From contig BEIE01000001.1 in NCBI GenBank assembly GCA_002898255.1, positions 372,001 to 436,000 of the forward strand: a DNA stretch of 64,000 bases, given 5' to 3'. The translations under genes and the position numbers were made by a program. This DNA comes from a bacterium HR28 (GTDB taxonomy: Bacteria; Chloroflexota; Chloroflexia; Thermomicrobiales; Thermomicrobiaceae). Of this stretch, positions 8,155 through 49,567 are shown in pieces. Positions within the stretch are counted from its first letter, which is position 1. The number at the start of each line of letters is the position of its first letter. A model generated the notes under the pieces. That model had not been told where the DNA came from. It made no database searches and saw only the letters and a list, made by a program, of their open reading frames with translations.

Positions 8155-9828
8155 TTGGGCCAGACACATCGCCAGAGGCCAGCACTCCACCTCGCTCTCG
8201 TCTTGATGATTGCGTTCAACGCCCTTTCATCTCTTGCAGCAGGCCCGTCTGTCCGCGCAGCACCTTCCTTCCTGCGGTGGGGCTACTACGTCACCTACGA
8301 CCGGACATCTTGGACAACGCTCCAGAACCATCTTGGTACGCTGGACGTCGTTTCACCGTATTTTTTCCAACTGCGGGCCGACGGATCGATCGAAGAACTC
8401 AGCGATCCGACCGCTGATAGCTTCTTGCGCCAGAGCGGGCTCACGATCGTGCCGATGATCAAGAACGTCCCGCGCTGGGACGAATTCACGCCGCTCATCG
8501 CTGATCCACAGCGCCGGGCTGCCATCATTGCTCGACTTGTTGCCCTGGTTGAGCAGCGTGGGTACCACGGGATCCACATTGACTTCGAGGCAGTCAACGC
8601 CAGTGATGCACCCCATCTCACGGCCTTCATGCGGGAACTCGCAGCTCAACTCCATCCGCGTGGAAAGCTCGTGACGCAGGCTGTCGTTGCCCGCACCTCG
8701 GATACGCCGACAACGTGGGGTGGTGCGTATGACTATCGAGCCCTCGCCGAAGTAAACGACTACATTGTGGTGATGGCCTATGATTTTCACTACGCCGGTG
8801 GCACACCCGGCCCGGTAGCCCCGCTGACGTGGGTACAACGAGTCGTTGCCTATTTGACGACGCGCATCCCACCTGAGAAGCTCATCCTCGGTATTCCACT
8901 CTACGGCTACGACTGGGACATCACGGCTGGTCCGCCAGCACGCTCCGTCCGCTTTGATCAGGTCCAGGAACTCCGAAGACGTCCTGGCGCGACGAGTGGA
9001 TACGACGAGACAGAGCAGGAAGCCTGGATCCGCTACACCGACGACCAGGGGCACCAGCACGAGGTCTGGCATGCTGACGTCCGCAGTGTGACCGCGCGGC
9101 TCGAGCTGGCATTGGACCGTGGCCTGGCTGGTGTAGCGCTCTGGCGACTCGGCCATGAGGACCCTGCCGTCTGGAACGAGCTCGCCCGCCTGAACACACC
9201 TGCCACGCGTATCCCCGCGTTTCCCTCCACTCCCGAGCGGCGCTACTTCCCAGAAACCGGACATTCTCTCGCCTATGGTTTCAAGGCATTCTGGGAACGG
9301 AGTGGTGGCCTACCGATCTTCGGCTATCCGCTGACCGAGGAGTTCACCGAAATGAATCCTGACCTCGGGCGGCCGTTTACTGTCCAATACTTTGAGCGAC
9401 AGCGCTTCGAATACCACCCCGAGCTCGCGGGGACACCCTATGAGGTTCAGCTTGGCCGCCTTGGGGCAGAAGACGCACAACGGCGGGGATTGCTGGGAAG
9501 TCAGCCGTTCCAGCCGGTGCCTGCTAGCGCCGCAGCGCCGGGCTGCCGCTTTTTCCCAGAGACCAGTCACACACTCTGTGAGCCCTTCCTCTCCTACTGG
9601 CAGTCGCACGGCCTGGAGTTCGGCGATCCGGGAATCTCCTTCCGAGAGTCGCTCGCCTTGTTCGGCTATCCGATTTCCGAGCCGTTCCGTGATCCGGCGA
9701 CCGGGTTGACCGTGCAGTACTTCGAGCGGGCACGTTTCGAGTACCATCCGGACAACCCAGAGCCGTACCAGGTGCTCCTGGGGCTCCTCGGCACCGATCT
9801 CGTACGGGCGAAAGGATGGATCCGGTGA
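8155..9828 (+). CDS. Secreted GH18-like glycosidase with two C-terminal repeats
   Basis: The TTG at 8155 follows AAAGGAGG at 4 bp and gives a classical signal peptide. An in-frame ATG further upstream lies inside the previous gene. The catalytic part (about residues 40-350) resembles the YaaH/spore-cortex branch of GH18, with [10 protein letters not shown] (Glu as proton donor), [10 protein letters not shown] and GIPLYGYDW. Residues 362-447 and 463-557 are two copies of a module running from RYFPETGH through FGYPL to [13 protein letters not shown]. The same module occurs in the glycosidase at 60235-62019. A cell-wall or exopolysaccharide substrate is inferred. Confidence 0.85.
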
Positions 9829-10280
9829 GCACTTCCAAGCGTATCCTTGTGCTGCACGGACCAAACCTGAACTTGCTCGGCCGGCGTGAGCCCGGGATCT
9901 ACGGGACGACAACGTTGGCGGAGATCGACCAACGGCTCCGCGAACTCGCGGCAGCACACGGCTACGAGGTGATTACTGCGCAGTCGAACCACGAGGGGGA
10001 ACTGGTTGACCTGATCCAGCGCTACGGCTGGGAAGTTGCGGGGATTGTGCTGAATCCCGGCGCACTCACGCACTACAGTATCGCGTTACGTGATGCAGTA
10101 GCAGCAGTGCCGGCCCCAACGGTCGAAGTACACCTTTCCAACATCCACGCACGGGAGCCGTTCCGGCACCATTCGGTCATCGCGCCGGTTGCAGTCGGGC
10201 AGATCTGTGGCTTCGGTCCGATGAGTTATGAACTTGCGCTTTCCTACCTGATACGACGTGCGGAAGGAGCAGAAAAGTGA
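9825..10280 (+). CDS. aroQ: Type II 3-dehydroquinate dehydratase
   Basis: This small cytoplasmic shikimate-pathway enzyme converts 3-dehydroquinate to 3-dehydroshikimate. It shows [14 protein letters not shown], with the catalytic Tyr following in GIYG, then [15 protein letters not shown] and [13 protein letters not shown]. The length, about 151 residues, is normal for the dodecameric type II family. I prefer the GTG at 9825, which overlaps the previous stop as GTGA and has AAAGGA 8 bp upstream. ATG 9816 would add three residues. It also overlaps the next gene by 4 bp. Confidence 0.95.
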
Positions 10281-11380
10281 ACATCGAGACGCGGCTCGCG
10301 CGGCTCCGCGAGCGGCTCCGCGAGCAGGAACTCGATGCGATCGTCGTCACGCACCCCTCGAACCGTTTCTGGCTGAGTGGCTTTACTGGCGAGGATATCC
10401 CCCCGAACGAATCGGCGGGACACCTCGTGATCAGCCAGCACGAAGCAGTCCTGGTGACCAGCCGCCTCAACAGCGCTCTCGCGCAGCAGGAAGCCCATGG
10501 TTACCGTATCTTCGACCAGGAGCGAGACTTCGCGCGGGGCGATGCAACCGTTCTGCAAGAGCTTGGGGCCCGCCGCGTCGGCTTTGAAGATCGTGCCATT
10601 CTCTACCGCGACGTTCGAGTCCTGGAAGAAACGCTCGGCCAACACGTTGAGCTGGTTCCCGTCGGCTCCCTGGTCGATGACTTGCGTGCGATCAAGACAC
10701 CGGACGAACTGGAACGGATCAAACAGGCGCAAGCGATCACCGACGCCGCTCTTCAGGCCGTCGTCGCCGAGCTCCGCCCCGGGCTGACCGAGCGCGAGAT
10801 CGCCCTCCAGTTGGAGCGAGCACTAATGGAGGCTGGTGCGGACGGCACGGCCTTTCCGATTGCGGTGGCGTCTGGCCCCCACGGTGCGTTGCCGCACTAT
10901 CGGCCCACGCAACGGCCGATCGCGGTGGGGGAGCCGATCGTCATTGACATGGGCGCCGTCGTCGGTGGCTATTGCGCCGACCTCACCCGCACCGTCTGGC
11001 TCGGTACGGCGGACGACCAGTTAGAGCGGATCTTCGCGGTCGTTCTCGCGGCAATCGAGGCGGCTGAGCAGGGCATCCGACCCGGCATGACTGGTCGCGA
11101 GGCCGACGCTTTGGCCCGGGAAGTGATTGCGCGTGCTGGCTACGGCGATGCGTTCACCCACTCCCTCGGTCACGGTGTTGGCGTCCGCGTCCACGAGGCA
11201 CCGTCCCTCTCGCCAGCGTCAGAGCAGGTGCTGGAGCCAGGCCATGTGGTGACCATCGAGCCAGGCATCTATCTCCCCGGATGGGGCGGCGTCCGGATCG
11301 AAGACCTCGTGGTGATCCGTGAGCACGGAGTCGACGTCTTGACGCGGACGCCGAAGCGTCTCACTCTGCCGGGAGGCTGA
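10277..11380 (+). CDS. M24 family Xaa-Pro aminopeptidase
   Basis: This 367-residue protein has a creatinase-like N-terminal domain and a pita-bread catalytic domain. The metal ligands are visible in order: VIDMGAV and CADLTRT (two Asp), the His of HSLGHGVG, the Glu of TIEPGIYLP and the Glu of RIEDLVV. These five ligands are complete. Such proteins release N-terminal residues preceding proline. The GTG overlaps the aroQ stop and follows AAGGAG. A linked position with aroQ and efp is frequent in many bacteria. Confidence 0.93.
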
Positions 11381-44720: not shown

Positions 44721-45581
44721 ATGTTCGTGCCAATCCTCCACAGTTGCCCAACTTGCCCAAGCGTCCTCGGGATTACCCTCTATCCGCCAGCGCTGGCGTT
44801 GGTCATCGTTCCAACGCTTGTGTACAGTCTCGCATTGTGGCGGTTACGGCGAATCGGTCGCTCCGTTCCCACGAGCTGGCCGGCGGCGTTCTATGTCGGT
44901 ATGTTCACGGCACTCATTGCCCTGGCCGGTCCGCTCGATACGTGGAACGACGAACTCCTCACAATGCACATGGCGCAACATCTCGTCCTCATTCAGATCA
45001 CAGCACCCCTACTCCTGCTGGGGAGACCGATCCAAGTCATCTTGCGTGGGCTTCCGCCACAGCGCGCTGGCCTACTGACACGCCTGTTGCTCCGGCCAAT
45101 CTGGTCCCGTCGCCTCCTCCAGCTGTTGACGCAGCCGCTGGTGGCTGCGGCACTGGCCAATCTTGCTTTGGTCGTCTGGCACTTTCCGCCCCTCTACAGC
45201 CAGGCAGTCTGGCACCAGTTGGTCCATGACCTGCAGCACGTGAGCTTTTTTGGTACAGCGCTCTTGTTCTGGTGGCCGATTATTGACCCAGTACCACGCC
45301 ACCACCGCGTGAGCGGCCTGTGGGCAAGTCTCATGGTCTTTATCACTGCGGTGATCAGCACAGTGATTGGAGCAATCCTCACGCTTGCTGATAAGGTACT
45401 CTATGAGCCCTATCGCTCCGTCGCTATGCCCTGGGGGTTTACTCCAATGGTCGATCAGCAGGTTGCTGGCCTTCTCATGTGGATTGGTGGCGGCACACTG
45501 TACATCGTGATCATTCTTATCCTCCTTGCTCGCTGGCTCCTCCACGAGGAAGGCCGCCGTATGGCCAGCGAGCCCGCGTGA
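44721..45581 (+). CDS. CtaG-family cytochrome c oxidase assembly protein
   Basis: This 286-residue protein has about seven membrane helices, with the family signature WNDELLTMHMAQHLVLIQ, WHFPPLYSQAVWH, LQHVSFFGTALLFWWP and a C-terminal DQQVAGLLMWIGGG. The conserved His residues may bind copper. CtaG of this caa3 type is needed for assembly of a caa3 oxidase. No oxidase genes are in the window. The ribosome site (AGGGGTGG) is moderate. It is convergent with the ArsO-like gene. Confidence 0.92.
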   Translation: MFVPILHSCPTCPSVLGITLYPPALALVIVPTLVYSLALWRLRRIGRSVPTSWPAAFYVGMFTALIALAGPLDTWNDELLTMHMAQHLVLIQITAPLLLLGRPIQVILRGLPPQRAGLLTRLLLRPIWSRRLLQLLTQPLVAAALANLALVVWHFPPLYSQAVWHQLVHDLQHVSFFGTALLFWWPIIDPVPRHHRVSGLWASLMVFITAVISTVIGAILTLADKVLYEPYRSVAMPWGFTPMVDQQVAGLLMWIGGGTLYIVIILILLARWLLHEEGRRMASEPA

Positions 45582-45676
45582 GACGCCCAGCCGGATACCG
45601 CATACCCTCTTACGGAACACGGATCAACCGTTCCCAACGAAGAGGCCCCCTTCTGGCGAGCAGCCACTACTGGGCA

Positions 45677-47095
45677 TCAGGGTGATCCACAACAGGACCC
45701 GGGCCGGGACACGCTGGAACTCGCCGAAGGGCTTCCTTCCACCTTGCTGTGTTCCAGCGCAAGAGGGAGAGCATCCGCGTTACGCACCGGTTCCAATCCA
45801 GGCGACATCGTTCCGGTGTGTTGATTCGCTTCTCCAGACTCGCAGCATGCCGCGACATCTGCACCGTTGCAGACGCCGGTCGCCGGGAGTTCAAGTTGGA
45901 CGCGATGCGCAGCCTCCCAATCGCCAGCCAGCGCCGCGACCACCGAACGGACCTGCTCGTAACCGGTCCGAAGCAAAAACGTTGGCGCGCGCCCATAGCT
46001 TTTAAGGCCTACAAGAAAGAAGTCCGGTTCTTGAGGGTGCGCAAGCTCCCGGACTCCGTGTGGAGGGACAGTCCCACAACTATGAACGTTCGGATCGATC
46101 AGGGGCGCGAGGGCTACCGGCGCCTCAACGGCCGGATCGAGCGCCAGCCGAAGCTCATGGAGCGGCGTGAGGTCCGGCCGATACCCGGTTGCACAGACAA
46201 TCCGATCAACTGGGGGTAGGACCCGCTCGCCGCTATGGATCACGATACCCCGCGAGCTCCGTTCGACTCGATCCACAAGAACTCCGGTGTGCAGGGTAAC
46301 AAGGGCTTTCGCCACGGCCTCCGCGACACGGAGACCAAGCCGGCCACGCTCGGGAAGTTCATCGCTCGCACTGCCGAGTCGCCCAGTGAGCGAGCGACGC
46401 CGAATCGCCCAGTGGATCCGGGTATCAGGCTCTTGTGCTGCCAGCTCGACGAGGTCAAGAAGGACCCCAAAAGCTGAATGTCCAGCCCCGACCACGAGTG
46501 TCTGCCTTCCGGCGTAGGCTGCCCGGTCGCGGCCGAGCACGTCTGGCATACCGTAGGCAATACAATCGGCCAGAACCGCTTCGCCGAGTGCAGGGAGACC
46601 ACACGCACCCAGCGGGTTCGGAACAGCGCCAGACGCATCAATCACTGCGCAGGCGAGGATTTCCTCCTCACCGTTCGGCGTCGCTACGCGGACCACGAAT
46701 GGGCGCCCGATCCGATCATACCCAGCCAGCTTATCGCGGCCGAGTCGGGCGACAGCGATGACACGATGCTGCACATGCAGGAAGGGATGGATCGCTGGGT
46801 GGGCAGCGAGTGGTTCGAGCCAGCGTGCGACGAGCTCGCCGCCGGTCGGGTAAGCCTCCGACGCAGGGGCATGCCAGCCCTTGGCGGCGAGAAGTTGTGC
46901 CGCAAGCGGATCAAGGTTGAACCGCCAGGGCGAGAACATCCGGACATGCGCCCAGCGCCGGACCACTGTGCCGACGGTGGGACCAGCCTCCAGTACCAAG
47001 AACGGCAGGCCCCGCTGGGACAAATGTGCAGCCGCGACAAGCCCGATCGGCCCGGCACCGATCACAACGATAGGAAGGTCCCGCGGTGACGACAT
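45677..47095 (-). CDS. ArsO-like FAD-dependent monooxygenase
   Basis: The 472-residue two-dinucleotide-binding-fold flavoprotein has IVVIGAGPIGLVAAAHL at the N-terminus (FAD), LVVGAGHSAFGVLLDL (NADPH) and CATGYRPDL. The last 65 residues are Cys-rich: GVCNGAD, ACCESGE and a terminal SCCGSP. Flavoproteins with such tails are found in ars operons as ArsO. The vicinal Cys pairs could bind trivalent arsenic. An ArsR gene lies 147 bp upstream on the same strand. GAGGAG precedes the ATG. No arsenite pump is adjacent. Confidence 0.8.
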   Translation of the reverse strand: MSSPRDLPIVVIGAGPIGLVAAAHLSQRGLPFLVLEAGPTVGTVVRRWAHVRMFSPWRFNLDPLAAQLLAAKGWHAPASEAYPTGGELVARWLEPLAAHPAIHPFLHVQHRVIAVARLGRDKLAGYDRIGRPFVVRVATPNGEEEILACAVIDASGAVPNPLGACGLPALGEAVLADCIAYGMPDVLGRDRAAYAGRQTLVVGAGHSAFGVLLDLVELAAQEPDTRIHWAIRRRSLTGRLGSASDELPERGRLGLRVAEAVAKALVTLHTGVLVDRVERSSRGIVIHSGERVLPPVDRIVCATGYRPDLTPLHELRLALDPAVEAPVALAPLIDPNVHSCGTVPPHGVRELAHPQEPDFFLVGLKSYGRAPTFLLRTGYEQVRSVVAALAGDWEAAHRVQLELPATGVCNGADVAACCESGEANQHTGTMSPGLEPVRNADALPLALEHSKVEGSPSASSSVSRPGSCCGSP

Positions 47096-47182
47096 TGCTG
47101 TGCTCCTCTCACATCTCTTCCGCGTACCATCCAGTCAGCGCCGCTCCGCTCAATGAACCGCACTCCCATGCAGGCCACCCTA

Positions 47183-47200
47183 TATCGACATTTATCGATC
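47183..47200. promoter_or_regulatory. ArsR-type operator between arsR and the flavoprotein gene
   Basis: TATCGA-CATTTA-TCGATc is an almost perfect dyad. The same dyad, in the variant TATCGA-CGTTTG-TCAATg, overlaps the arsR promoter. It lies downstream of arsR and 88 bp upstream of the flavoprotein start, suggesting a second ArsR-controlled promoter there. Confidence 0.65.
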
Positions 47201-47242
47201 CAGGTGCGACACTGTATCCCCCTCATGCACCTGGTTCCACGC

Positions 47243-47584
47243 TCAAGTCGCGACCTGTTCAGCCAGAACCTGCTCGAGGGCTGCCAATGCGGCACGCGCA
47301 AGCGGCGTGGCTTGGTAGTAGGCCCAGGTACCGCGGCGCTCGACCGTGACAAGATGAGCCTGGCGCAGGATGCGCAGATGGTGCGAAACGGTGGGCTGAC
47401 CGACCGGCACGCGCTCCACGAGGTGGCAGACACAAAGCGGTTCCTTCTGCTGAACAAGCAGTGCCAGTAACGTCAAGCGCGTCTCGTCAGCGAGGGCCCG
47501 AGCTAGTGCGGCGAGTTGGCGCATTCGTCCCGTGTCCAAGGAGGGCATTTCGCGATCGATCAGGCAACAGGATCGTTGTGCCAC
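47243..47584 (-). CDS. arsR: ArsR family transcriptional repressor
   Basis: The GTG at 47584 follows AAGGAGG by 5 bp and lies behind the promoter described below, so longer frames upstream are non-coding. The 113-residue winged-helix protein has the metalloid site CVCHL (Cys51, Cys53) at the start of the DNA-binding helices and GQPTVSHHLRILRQAHLV as recognition region. An extra Cys pair, Cys6-Cys7, near the N-terminus could add a third sulfur ligand. As(III) binding would release it from DNA. The gene is autoregulated by its own operator. Confidence 0.93.
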   Translation of the reverse strand: MAQRSCCLIDREMPSLDTGRMRQLAALARALADETRLTLLALLVQQKEPLCVCHLVERVPVGQPTVSHHLRILRQAHLVTVERRGTWAYYQATPLARAALAALEQVLAEQVAT

Positions 47585-47602
47585 CTTGTCCTCCTTGGAG
47601 TC

Positions 47603-47632
47603 ACCATAGCATCTGTATCGACGTTTGTCAAT
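47603..47632 (-). promoter_or_regulatory. arsR promoter with overlapping operator
   Basis: On the minus strand a perfect TTGACA (47631-47626) and TATGGT (47608-47603) are 17 bp apart. The ArsR-type dyad at 47616-47633 covers the -35 and most of the spacer, so bound repressor would block polymerase. Confidence 0.82.
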
Positions 47633-47971
47633 GCATTTCCTGCTGATCACTGCTGGCGTCTCGCATCAGCACCAGAAGGCGGCTCACGCAAGAGCGTGGA
47701 AGGCAAACAAATGACAAGGGAGGACAGCGCGCTCCCACAGAACTACTGAAGCTCGATCGTCTCTTGAAAACGCGCTTGCAGCGATTGTGCTCGGGCTTGG
47801 AGGGCAGCGACACCTGTAGGTCTGTCCGGCTCTTGATCTCAGAGGGCCACAGCGCACTGGTCAACTTGCGCCCGCATCAATCTCTCCGTCACCTCTTGCG
47901 AGAGATGAGATTGCCCGTTATCGTGCCGAGGCGGAACCGACAGGAGGTCTCTCTCCAGAAGGAGAACGGCG
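47633..47971. other. Intergenic region with the amidohydrolase promoter
   Basis: About 340 bp between the divergent arsR and amidohydrolase genes. A promoter candidate for the latter is TTGCGA (47896-47901), a 17-bp spacer and TATCGT (47919-47924). No other feature was found. Confidence 0.5.
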
Positions 47972-49567
47972 ATGGACGCCTATGCAGTCGTGAACGGCAC
48001 GATCTTGACGATGGATCCGACGCAACCAGAAGTTGAGGCATTCGGGGTAATTGGCGAGCACATTGTCGCCGTTGGCTCATTGGCCGAGGTCGAAGCAGCC
48101 CTGCCCCGTGGCGCCCGGCGACTTGATCTCGCCGGGGCTACTTGCCTTCCCGGCTTCAATGAAGCACACAATCACATGATCAACTTTGGCTTGGTTCTGG
48201 GGCAAGTCAACTGTCGTCACCCTCATGTCCGCTCCATCAGCGACATCGTGGCCCGCTTTGCCGAGCGAGCGAGCCAGACACCGCCGGGGAGCTGGATCCG
48301 TGGGCGTGGGTATGACGATAACGTGCTTGCCGAGCATCGTCATCCCACCCGTTGGGACCTTGACCAGGCTAGCACGCGTCATCCGCTCGTCCTTGTCCAT
48401 AGCTCCGGTCATATGCTGGTCGCGAATTCCCTAGCGCTTCAGCTCGCTGGCGTCACCCGGGAGACGCCCGACCCTTCTGGTGGACACATTGTGCGAGACG
48501 AGTCGGGCGAGCCGACTGGGCTGCTCCAGGAGAACGCGATGGAACTGGTCGAACGAGTAATCCCTGCTCCAACGCTTGAGGAGATGATTGAAGCACTTCG
48601 TCGCTGCAACGATGCATATGTTGCGGCTGGTATTACCTCAAGCCAGGACGCTGGCTCGGACCATCCACTGCAAGTCGAGGCCTACCAGCGAGCAGTCGAG
48701 CGCGGTGTGTTGAAGCTGCGCACTTCGATGATGATCCGTCATCAACTTCTCCCCCATCTGCTTGGGCTGGGAGTCAAGCAGGGATTTGGCGACAATCGAC
48801 TCCGCCTCGGCCCAGTGAAGCTCTTTGCCGACGGTAGCCTCATTGGACGCACCGCAGCGGTGAGCCGTCCCTTCCTGAGCGATCCACGACCAGACAATTA
48901 CGGGATGACGATCTGGACACAAGAAGAACTGGACGAGTTGGTCTGGCAAGCCCACAGTGCTGGCTTCCAAGTGGCGACACACGCGATTGGTGATCGAGCG
49001 ATTGAGATGGTGCTGGATGCCTATGAGCGTGCGCTCACTCGGCTCCCACGAGCAGATCATCGTCATCGTATTGAACATTGCGGAATATTACGCCCCGACC
49101 TGATTGAGCGCATTGCCCGACTTGGGGTGCTAGTCGTCAGCCAGCCAATCTTTATCGCTGAATACGGTGATGGCTTCATTCGCCACCTTGGTCTGGAACG
49201 GATTCAACTCACGTATCCGTTCCGAAGCCTTCTCGATGCCGGCATCCGGCTCGTTTTCTCGACGGACTGCCCGGTCTCGTCTTACGAACCGCTCCGCTGT
49301 ATCCAAGCCGCCGTTTTGGAGCGCACGGCGAGCGGCCGTTCCTATGCGCTGGAGGAGGCGATTCGCGTTGAAGAAGCCCTACCGCTCTACACAGTGAATG
49401 GGGCATACGCCACCTTCGAGGAGCGACACAAGGGGATGCTCCGCCCCGGCATGCTTGCCGATTTTGTCGTCTTGGAGCATGATCCGCGTCGCGTCGATCC
49501 GGAGGAACTCACGCAGATACGAGTGCTGCGCACGGTCATTGGCGGCCAGACGGTCTATGAGGCATAA
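47972..49567 (+). CDS. Metal-dependent amidohydrolase, YtcJ/NfdA-like
   Basis: This 531-residue protein shows the short N-terminal beta domain, the metal motif FNEAHNHM (an H-x-H variant), the later HAIGD and HRIEHCG histidines, and FSTDCPVSS with the catalytic Asp. It ends with ADFVVLEHDPR and GGQTVYEA. This is the arrangement of the YtcJ branch of amidohydrolases, which hydrolyse N-acyl or formamide substrates. The natural substrate is unknown. AAGGAG precedes the ATG. It appears to be a single-gene unit. Confidence 0.92.
   Translation: MDAYAVVNGTILTMDPTQPEVEAFGVIGEHIVAVGSLAEVEAALPRGARRLDLAGATCLPGFNEAHNHMINFGLVLGQVNCRHPHVRSISDIVARFAERASQTPPGSWIRGRGYDDNVLAEHRHPTRWDLDQASTRHPLVLVHSSGHMLVANSLALQLAGVTRETPDPSGGHIVRDESGEPTGLLQENAMELVERVIPAPTLEEMIEALRRCNDAYVAAGITSSQDAGSDHPLQVEAYQRAVERGVLKLRTSMMIRHQLLPHLLGLGVKQGFGDNRLRLGPVKLFADGSLIGRTAAVSRPFLSDPRPDNYGMTIWTQEELDELVWQAHSAGFQVATHAIGDRAIEMVLDAYERALTRLPRADHRHRIEHCGILRPDLIERIARLGVLVVSQPIFIAEYGDGFIRHLGLERIQLTYPFRSLLDAGIRLVFSTDCPVSSYEPLRCIQAAVLERTASGRSYALEEAIRVEEALPLYTVNGAYATFEERHKGMLRPGMLADFVVLEHDPRRVDPEELTQIRVLRTVIGGQTVYEA

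Follow-up and report, generated by a model that had tools for sequence, protein, structure and literature searches.

A two-gene cassette in a heat-loving bacterium, consisting of arsR and then a flavoprotein gene, both on the minus strand, carries two copies of one palindrome, and relatives of the host keep these paired sites together with arsR. The reading that we prefer, with a probability of about 0.6, is that of a detoxification unit under ArsR control that has two operators, the second of which most likely acts as a roadblock to transcription, and a flavoprotein that most likely oxidizes a trivalent compound. A fuller version, at somewhat less than even odds, would make it a natural, class-wide ArsR circuit that joins a promoter operator to a promoterless, arsenic-released roadblock and drives a flavoprotein whose cysteine-pair tail traps metalloids. 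The parts are of known kinds; the notable features are the conserved pairing of operators without a convincing second promoter, and the cysteine-pair tail.

The cassette, its sensor, and its missing pump

The host is a Thermomicrobium species; among named records, Thermomicrobium sp. CFH 73360 comes closest (94% identity in the flavoprotein). In the window, the whole stretch of 64,000 nucleotides that was analyzed, arsR occupies positions 47243-47584 of the minus strand and encodes an ArsR/SmtB metalloregulator of 113 residues; the flavoprotein gene, at 45677-47095 of the same strand, encodes a FAD/NAD(P)-type protein of 472 residues with a Pyr_redox_3 match. The first-pass annotation had described two inverted repeats around arsR, and both are present as described: TATCGACATTTATCGAT at 47183-47199 and TATCGACGTTTGTCAAT at 47616-47632, identical at 14 of 17 bases. 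The dyad at 47616 covers the -35 element of the arsR promoter, and the other lies between arsR and the flavoprotein gene. That promoter, TTGACA-17-TATGGT (47603-47631, read from 47631 to 47603 on the minus strand), agrees with the sigma-70 type at 10 of 12 positions and is the only such match in 45500-48000, where shuffled sequences average 0.4; its -35 element coincides with the operator's outer half.

The specificity of these sites depends on how strictly they are defined. The dyad pattern as first described occurs without mismatch at 3 places in the 3.12-Mb genome, and with two mismatches it occurs 22 times in the window versus 17.8 times in shuffles, which is no enrichment. Since loose dyads appear at shuffle frequency, only the strict form is informative, and we used a palindrome, ATYGAYNNNNRTCRAT, refined from nine loci (our own and eight from relatives). 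Exact matches to it place the predicted promoter-proximal ArsR operator at 47617-47632 (ATTGACAAACGTCGAT on the minus strand) and the predicted second, downstream operator at 47184-47199 (minus strand, ATCGATAAATGTCGAT). Rather than recurring at random across the genome, a prospect that had been raised against these dyads, the exact palindrome is found at 4 places in the 3.12 Mb (56 with at most one mismatch), two of which are those of the cassette. The remaining two were considered as further operators and are taken as chance occurrences, since they lie inside open reading frames.

The winged helix of ArsR scores above the cut-offs of both HTH_5 PF01022 (48.4 bits, cut-off 22) and NF033788 (89.4 bits, cut-off 55) in scans run on the longer frame, 47243-47650. 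Translation most likely starts at GTG 47584, 5 nt behind an AAGGAGG at 47596-47590; the longer frame was rejected because its start, GTG 47650, sits upstream of the promoter and GTG 47584 has the ribosome-binding site. The protein contains cysteines at positions 6-7 (CC) and 51-53 (CVC), and all four are invariant across nine aligned proteins. When the Rhodococcus ArsR (L025) is aligned with the Corynebacterium ArsR 6j0e, which has its third cysteine elsewhere and no CVC, the N-terminal CC of the former coincides with the CC of the latter; the CVC corresponds to that of Lmo1102. The cysteine set of this ArsR thus combines two known positions.

The cassette had been described as lacking an efflux pump, which holds for the cassette and its surroundings only. 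Whole-genome searches with models of Acr3, ArsB, ArsK, LMW-type ArsC, ArsM, and ArsP_1 placed no match within the window. Elsewhere the genome encodes an ArsK-like/ArsC-like pair and an ArsB-superfamily protein. The pair is on contig 2, where an ArsK-family MFS gene (173.7 bits, below the NCBI cut-off of 400) lies 0.9 kb from an ArsC-like gene that scores 106.5 bits (cut-off 174.3). The MFS protein shares 38% identity with those that adjoin the flavoprotein in Rhodococcus and Streptomyces. The 19-kb stretch around this pair contains no ArsR-family match and no dyad at 11 or more of the 12 positions. The two genes flank a small gene that looks HEPN-like by eye (L181, G000:C2:372000-391000, 8372-11136). 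The ArsB/CitMHS-superfamily protein (219 bits, cut-off 457) is encoded apart from them. Three other candidates in the genome were rejected: the Acr3 match is of the SBF type only (55 bits versus 282.8), the best ArsM match reaches 53 bits versus 263, and an ArsP_1-family match at G000:C2:351400 shows just weak SaoE and Cu/Zn-efflux matches in NCBIfam.

Conservation of the paired sites in relatives

The decisive evidence that the dyads are more than chance is their conservation in relatives, where a site was defined as a match at 11 or more of the 12 defined palindrome positions. At the level of the order, the set comprised 25 flavoprotein loci (E values up to 1.2e-100, our own included; a 140-residue piece at a contig end, G030, was left out), and in 18 of them the flavoprotein gene is directly preceded by arsR in the same orientation. 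The promoter dyad is present in every one of the 18 and is accompanied by the second dyad in 16, the exceptions being L070 and L075. Three of the other seven loci are cut by contig ends (L073, L078, and L080), a fourth has its ArsR 2.2 kb away (L065), and the last three have no ArsR near the flavoprotein (L066, L068, and L079).

Because the palindrome had been derived from nine order loci, a class-wide set gathered later provides an independent test. The flavoprotein was found at E values up to 1e-60 in 50 of 158 genomes, from which 27 unseen loci were fetched. In ten of these (L184-L190, L192, L200, and L204) arsR is directly upstream; the promoter dyad is present in all ten and both dyads in nine, L200 being without the second. 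Six more loci (L194, L201, L202, L203, L208, and L209) have two upstream dyads with no recognized arsR between them, two (L197 and L198) have two weaker sites (11/12) outside the paired pattern, and four (L193, L195, L196, and L199) have one dyad each. No dyad was found in L183, L191, L205, L206, or L207, the first four of which have less than 600 bp of upstream sequence. Single-base shuffles predict 0.67 matches for the entire class set. The sites are concentrated accordingly: the 25 order loci hold 34 sites in the 17.6 kb that lie at most 800 bp before the flavoprotein, versus 7 in 320 kb elsewhere (1.93 versus 0.022 per kb), and the 27 class loci hold 39 upstream in 19.2 kb, versus 20 in 212 kb elsewhere (2.03 versus 0.094 per kb).

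Outside these groups the palindrome follows a particular kind of regulator. The 31 proteobacterial loci (L085-L116 minus L113, a Chloroflexi MAG with one dyad; several are near-duplicates) have no dyad in the 24.8 kb before the flavoprotein gene, and the regulators at that place are of the PadR/MarR type in 18 loci and of the ArsR type in four (L095, L096, L098, and L100), with none recognized in nine. Among twelve plasmid loci, the Rhodococcus locus L025 has three dyads and L023 and L026 have one each at 11/12; the remaining nine have none, including L167 and L168 (Ensifer) and L172 (Afipia), where ArsR is directly upstream. The proposal that the dyads are ArsR operators is consistent with their retention with arsR in the class and their absence from the 18 PadR/MarR loci, and the seven ArsR-adjacent loci without the palindrome (L095, L096, L098, L100, L167, L168, and L172) tie the putative operator to a single ArsR subgroup.

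In the Rhodococcus plasmid, the three like palindromes are at -77, -51, and -22 in the gap between divergent arsR and flavoprotein genes. In six class loci (L184-L189), a gene for a PstS-like phosphate-binding protein is located divergently upstream of an arsR-flavoprotein-MFS unit, and pst genes also adjoin this unit on Ensifer and Cellulosimicrobium plasmids. No MFS gene match was found near the flavoprotein in the nine Thermomicrobium and sister-genus loci (L061 is cut). Such a gene is present downstream in 12 of the 16 other order loci and in 25 of the 27 class loci, as judged by matches to the plasmid MFS proteins rather than by scores on the ArsK model.

The role of the second site

We infer that ArsR would bind the palindrome over the -35 element and repress its own gene, and that it would also bind the second copy, which lies past arsR and ahead of the flavoprotein gene. 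There it would most likely stop RNA polymerase leaking through arsR, so that some ArsR could be made while the flavoprotein stays off. A trivalent arsenical or antimonite would then load the cysteine sites of ArsR and free both operators at once, and the flavoprotein would most likely use NADPH and O2 to oxidize methylarsenite, arsenite, or antimonite. The cysteine-pair tail probably serves to trap this thiophilic compound and to pass it to the FAD site, by analogy with mercuric reductase, in which a C-terminal cysteine pair delivers the substrate to the FAD site.

The two sites differ in their relation to promoters. The outer half of the first dyad reads ATTGAC in all 18 order loci with arsR directly upstream, and in every one the region's best promoter match begins at its TTGAC, with a -10 element at 17 or 18 nt; at most 4% of shuffles reach this match in 17 of the 18 (17% in L069). 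The same register, with order and class together placing the -10 element at 16-18 nt, is held at 15 of 18 tested class sites (exceptions L200, L195, and L199; L193 and L196-L198 were left out of this test). At the second dyad the usual reading is ATCGAT or ATTGAT. At all 17 order sites (16 pairs and L065) its best promoter match does no better than shuffles and the TTGAC register is not kept, and no promoter in register was found at 13 of 15 class sites, L184 and L208 having weak ones. These scans addressed promoters of the sigma-70 type, and other types would escape them. At the sequence level, then, a second ArsR-type site follows arsR in the cassette and precedes the effector gene, with no convincing promoter of its own, which makes a roadblock its most likely job.

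Three other accounts of the second site were weighed, all of them less probable than a roadblock. The strongest, though improbable, holds that the site governs an internal promoter, so that arsR and the flavoprotein gene form two transcription units. The 95-123 bp from the beginning of the second site to the flavoprotein start in five genus loci leave room for a transcription start; the divergent Rhodococcus arrangement puts its dyads directly upstream of the flavoprotein; and promoter-like matches at 9 of 12 positions lie near 5 of 15 class second sites (L184, L185, L194, L204, and L208), with a perfect TATAAT beside the dyad in L185. Those class matches, however, are equaled by 9-21% of shuffles, the loss of register across the order argues against a promoter there, and L185-L188 have a likely start codon with AAAGG just 21-25 nt past the second dyad, which leaves little room for one. 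It is less probable again that contacts between the ArsR dimers on the two sites draw the intervening arsR DNA into a loop, strengthening repression at the promoter rather than blocking elongation. The order spacing of 424-484 bp would permit this, as auxiliary operators at such distances loop in other systems, and the mycobacterial ArsR-family protein CmtR is reported to be cooperative with multiple operators (cited in PMC5116461). Against looping, the spacings of 431-441 bp among nine family loci show no helical phasing, and the distance in the class, 457-599 bp with arsR between the dyads, is only 44-332 bp without it. ArsR/SmtB proteins, moreover, are usually dimers.

Hardly probable is the third account, in which the inverted repeat before the flavoprotein gene is no operator and forms an RNA hairpin, as an attenuator, a processing site, or a control of translation. 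In Bacillus sp. CDB3, operon expression is reportedly reduced by a hairpin located between arsC and arsD (PMC4562236), and here a 41-nt stretch of the transcript outdoes 196 of 200 shuffles in folding; over 83 nt, however, the fold is unremarkable, with 28 of 200 shuffles folding as well. Across 32 second sites, in a test biased by their choice on a DNA consensus, pair 3-14 is kept in 25 (21.9 in shuffles, 3% of which reach this), whereas pair 6-11 is kept in 17 (19.7 in shuffles) and full pairing in just 13. The second dyad also shares sequence with the promoter operator beyond what pairing demands. The lack of a convincing promoter, the lack of phasing, and the incomplete RNA pairing at the second sites together favor an operator that blocks elongation.

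Such a roadblock has counterparts in engineered systems. An added ArsR site downstream of arsR is described as lowering background in E. coli bioreporters (PMC3918153), a second site serves against background also in PMC5116461, and a review lists ArsR as a roadblock to RNA polymerase (PMC10310618). The cassette resembles the bioreporters of PMC3918153 in having a promoter with an ArsR site, arsR first, and a second ArsR site before the effector. Unlike those man-made constructs with E. coli ArsR, the layout here is natural and conserved at many loci of the class. E. coli arsRBC and R773 arsRDABC are autoregulated arsR operons with an operator over their own promoter. The cassette shares with them the ArsR/SmtB repressor, the promoter operator, and, presumably, induction by metalloids; it differs in its second operator before the effector, in having a flavoprotein as that effector, and in lacking a pump within the unit. 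Searches of an open-licence library brought no paper to our notice that describes a natural second ArsR site or a cysteine-pair tail on such a flavoprotein. If the roadblock reading is true, repressor binding inside an operon separates the expression of sensor and effector in nature, evolution arrived at the anti-leak design that bioreporter engineers built, and the thermophile could supply low-leak ArsR parts for arsenic biosensors.

In four sister-genus genomes (L061-L064), a small frame with what is likely its own ribosome-binding site crosses the second operator, as seen by eye. The sequences diverge further on, and the frame may be due to chance or encode a leader peptide.

The flavoprotein and its cysteine-pair tail

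The description of the flavoprotein as ArsO-like did not survive comparison with the family model. It scores 39.1 bits on NCBIfam ArsO (NF040505, cut-off 425) and three of its relatives score 38.1-49.7 bits, and a plasmid of Streptomyces sp. NBC_01708 carries an annotated ArsO and a homologue of the flavoprotein as separate genes. The two kinds of protein have a flavoprotein fold and an ars-operon context in common but differ in length (346 residues for the ArsO model versus 472 here) and in the cysteine-pair tail of the present protein. Its structural model (pLDDT 81.6) has its best Foldseek matches among YpdA, FNR/TrxR-like, and FMO folds.

The flavoprotein has a match in 142 plasmid records, in 119 of them across at least 80% of the query; no relative was found in viral contigs. 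In twelve plasmid regions opened by choice among the 142 records, its annotations are generic, either oxidoreductase or NAD(P)-binding protein, and ten of these regions (exceptions L023 and L024) hold genes annotated as arsenic specific. Among the neighbors of the flavoprotein are ArsN1 and transporters of the ArsK-like kind, whose substrates are organic or trivalent arsenicals. An MFS gene directly follows the flavoprotein in L024, L025, and L026 and is upstream on the other strand in L021; ArsK is the best NCBI family for all four scanned plasmid MFS genes (154-243 bits, cut-off 400), and two Ensifer adhaerens plasmids are annotated arsR-oxidoreductase-arsK. The flavoprotein family is common in ars islands and on plasmids of soil bacteria, and is often followed by an ArsK-like transporter. 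Judged by context, the best candidate for its identity is the published ArsV oxidase for trivalent arsenicals and antimonite, a flavin monooxygenase that is reportedly an ars-locus flavoprotein and is said to be widespread in soil bacteria.

It is also conceivable, if rather unlikely, that the flavoprotein acts on compounds other than trivalent arsenicals; it might, for instance, be a reductase of disulfides or thiols that aids ArsC or redox balance during arsenic stress, with the tail as a redox shuttle or an arsenic sink. The closest solved fold is that of the bacillithiol disulfide reductase YpdA/Bdr, 7a76 (Foldseek 1.1e-19, profile E value 4.1e-19), and the cysteine pairs of the tail could relay redox equivalents. 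Yet the cysteine of the GGGPCG motif, which is catalytic in YpdA, is replaced by Val/Ile, and membership in YpdA/Bdr was rejected on this ground and on the TIGR04018 score of 38.7 bits (cut-off 339.9); the ArsN1 and ArsK-like transporters among the neighbors also argue against such a reductase.

The three cysteine-rich spots noted in the C terminus are Cys 409, CC 417-418, and CC 468-469. They fall within a region (45680-45889, minus strand) that begins with an LPxTGVC motif (45869-45889), nearly invariant among homologues, and continues as a tail that the model leaves disordered (pLDDT below 50 for residues 407-472). Homologues with the motif share this composition: CC is present in 57 of 62 distinct tails, which together contain 120 CC pairs versus 23.9 +/- 4.1 in shuffled tails, and cysteine makes up 10.0% of tail residues versus 0.54% of body residues. 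After clustering at 70% identity, CC is kept in 26 of 28 motif-bearing representatives. Five distinct homologues lack LPxTGVC, two of which are cut short. The other three (L117, L118, and L121; 37-38%), from deltaproteobacterial and myxococcal MAGs, are complete, distant proteins that end at 404 residues with no cysteine tail, so the fold can exist without it; the substrate of these tail-less homologues may differ.

MerA has an adjacent cysteine pair at its C terminus that binds a thiophilic metal. Vicinal cysteine pairs of ArsD are described as binding thiophilic metals and metalloids (PMC2440759). The tail of the present protein resembles both in its adjacent cysteines and differs from them in being disordered, variable in length and in number of pairs, and attached to an ars flavoprotein. 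Its conservation offers a handle on how such soil-plasmid enzymes might catch trivalent arsenic or antimony.

Downstream, a CtaG-type cytochrome oxidase assembly gene (44721-45581 of the window) faces the flavoprotein gene. The fourth of the sister-genus loci is cut by a contig end at this point; the same gene faces the flavoprotein gene, at a varying distance, in our own genome, in four genus loci, and in three of the four sister-genus loci.
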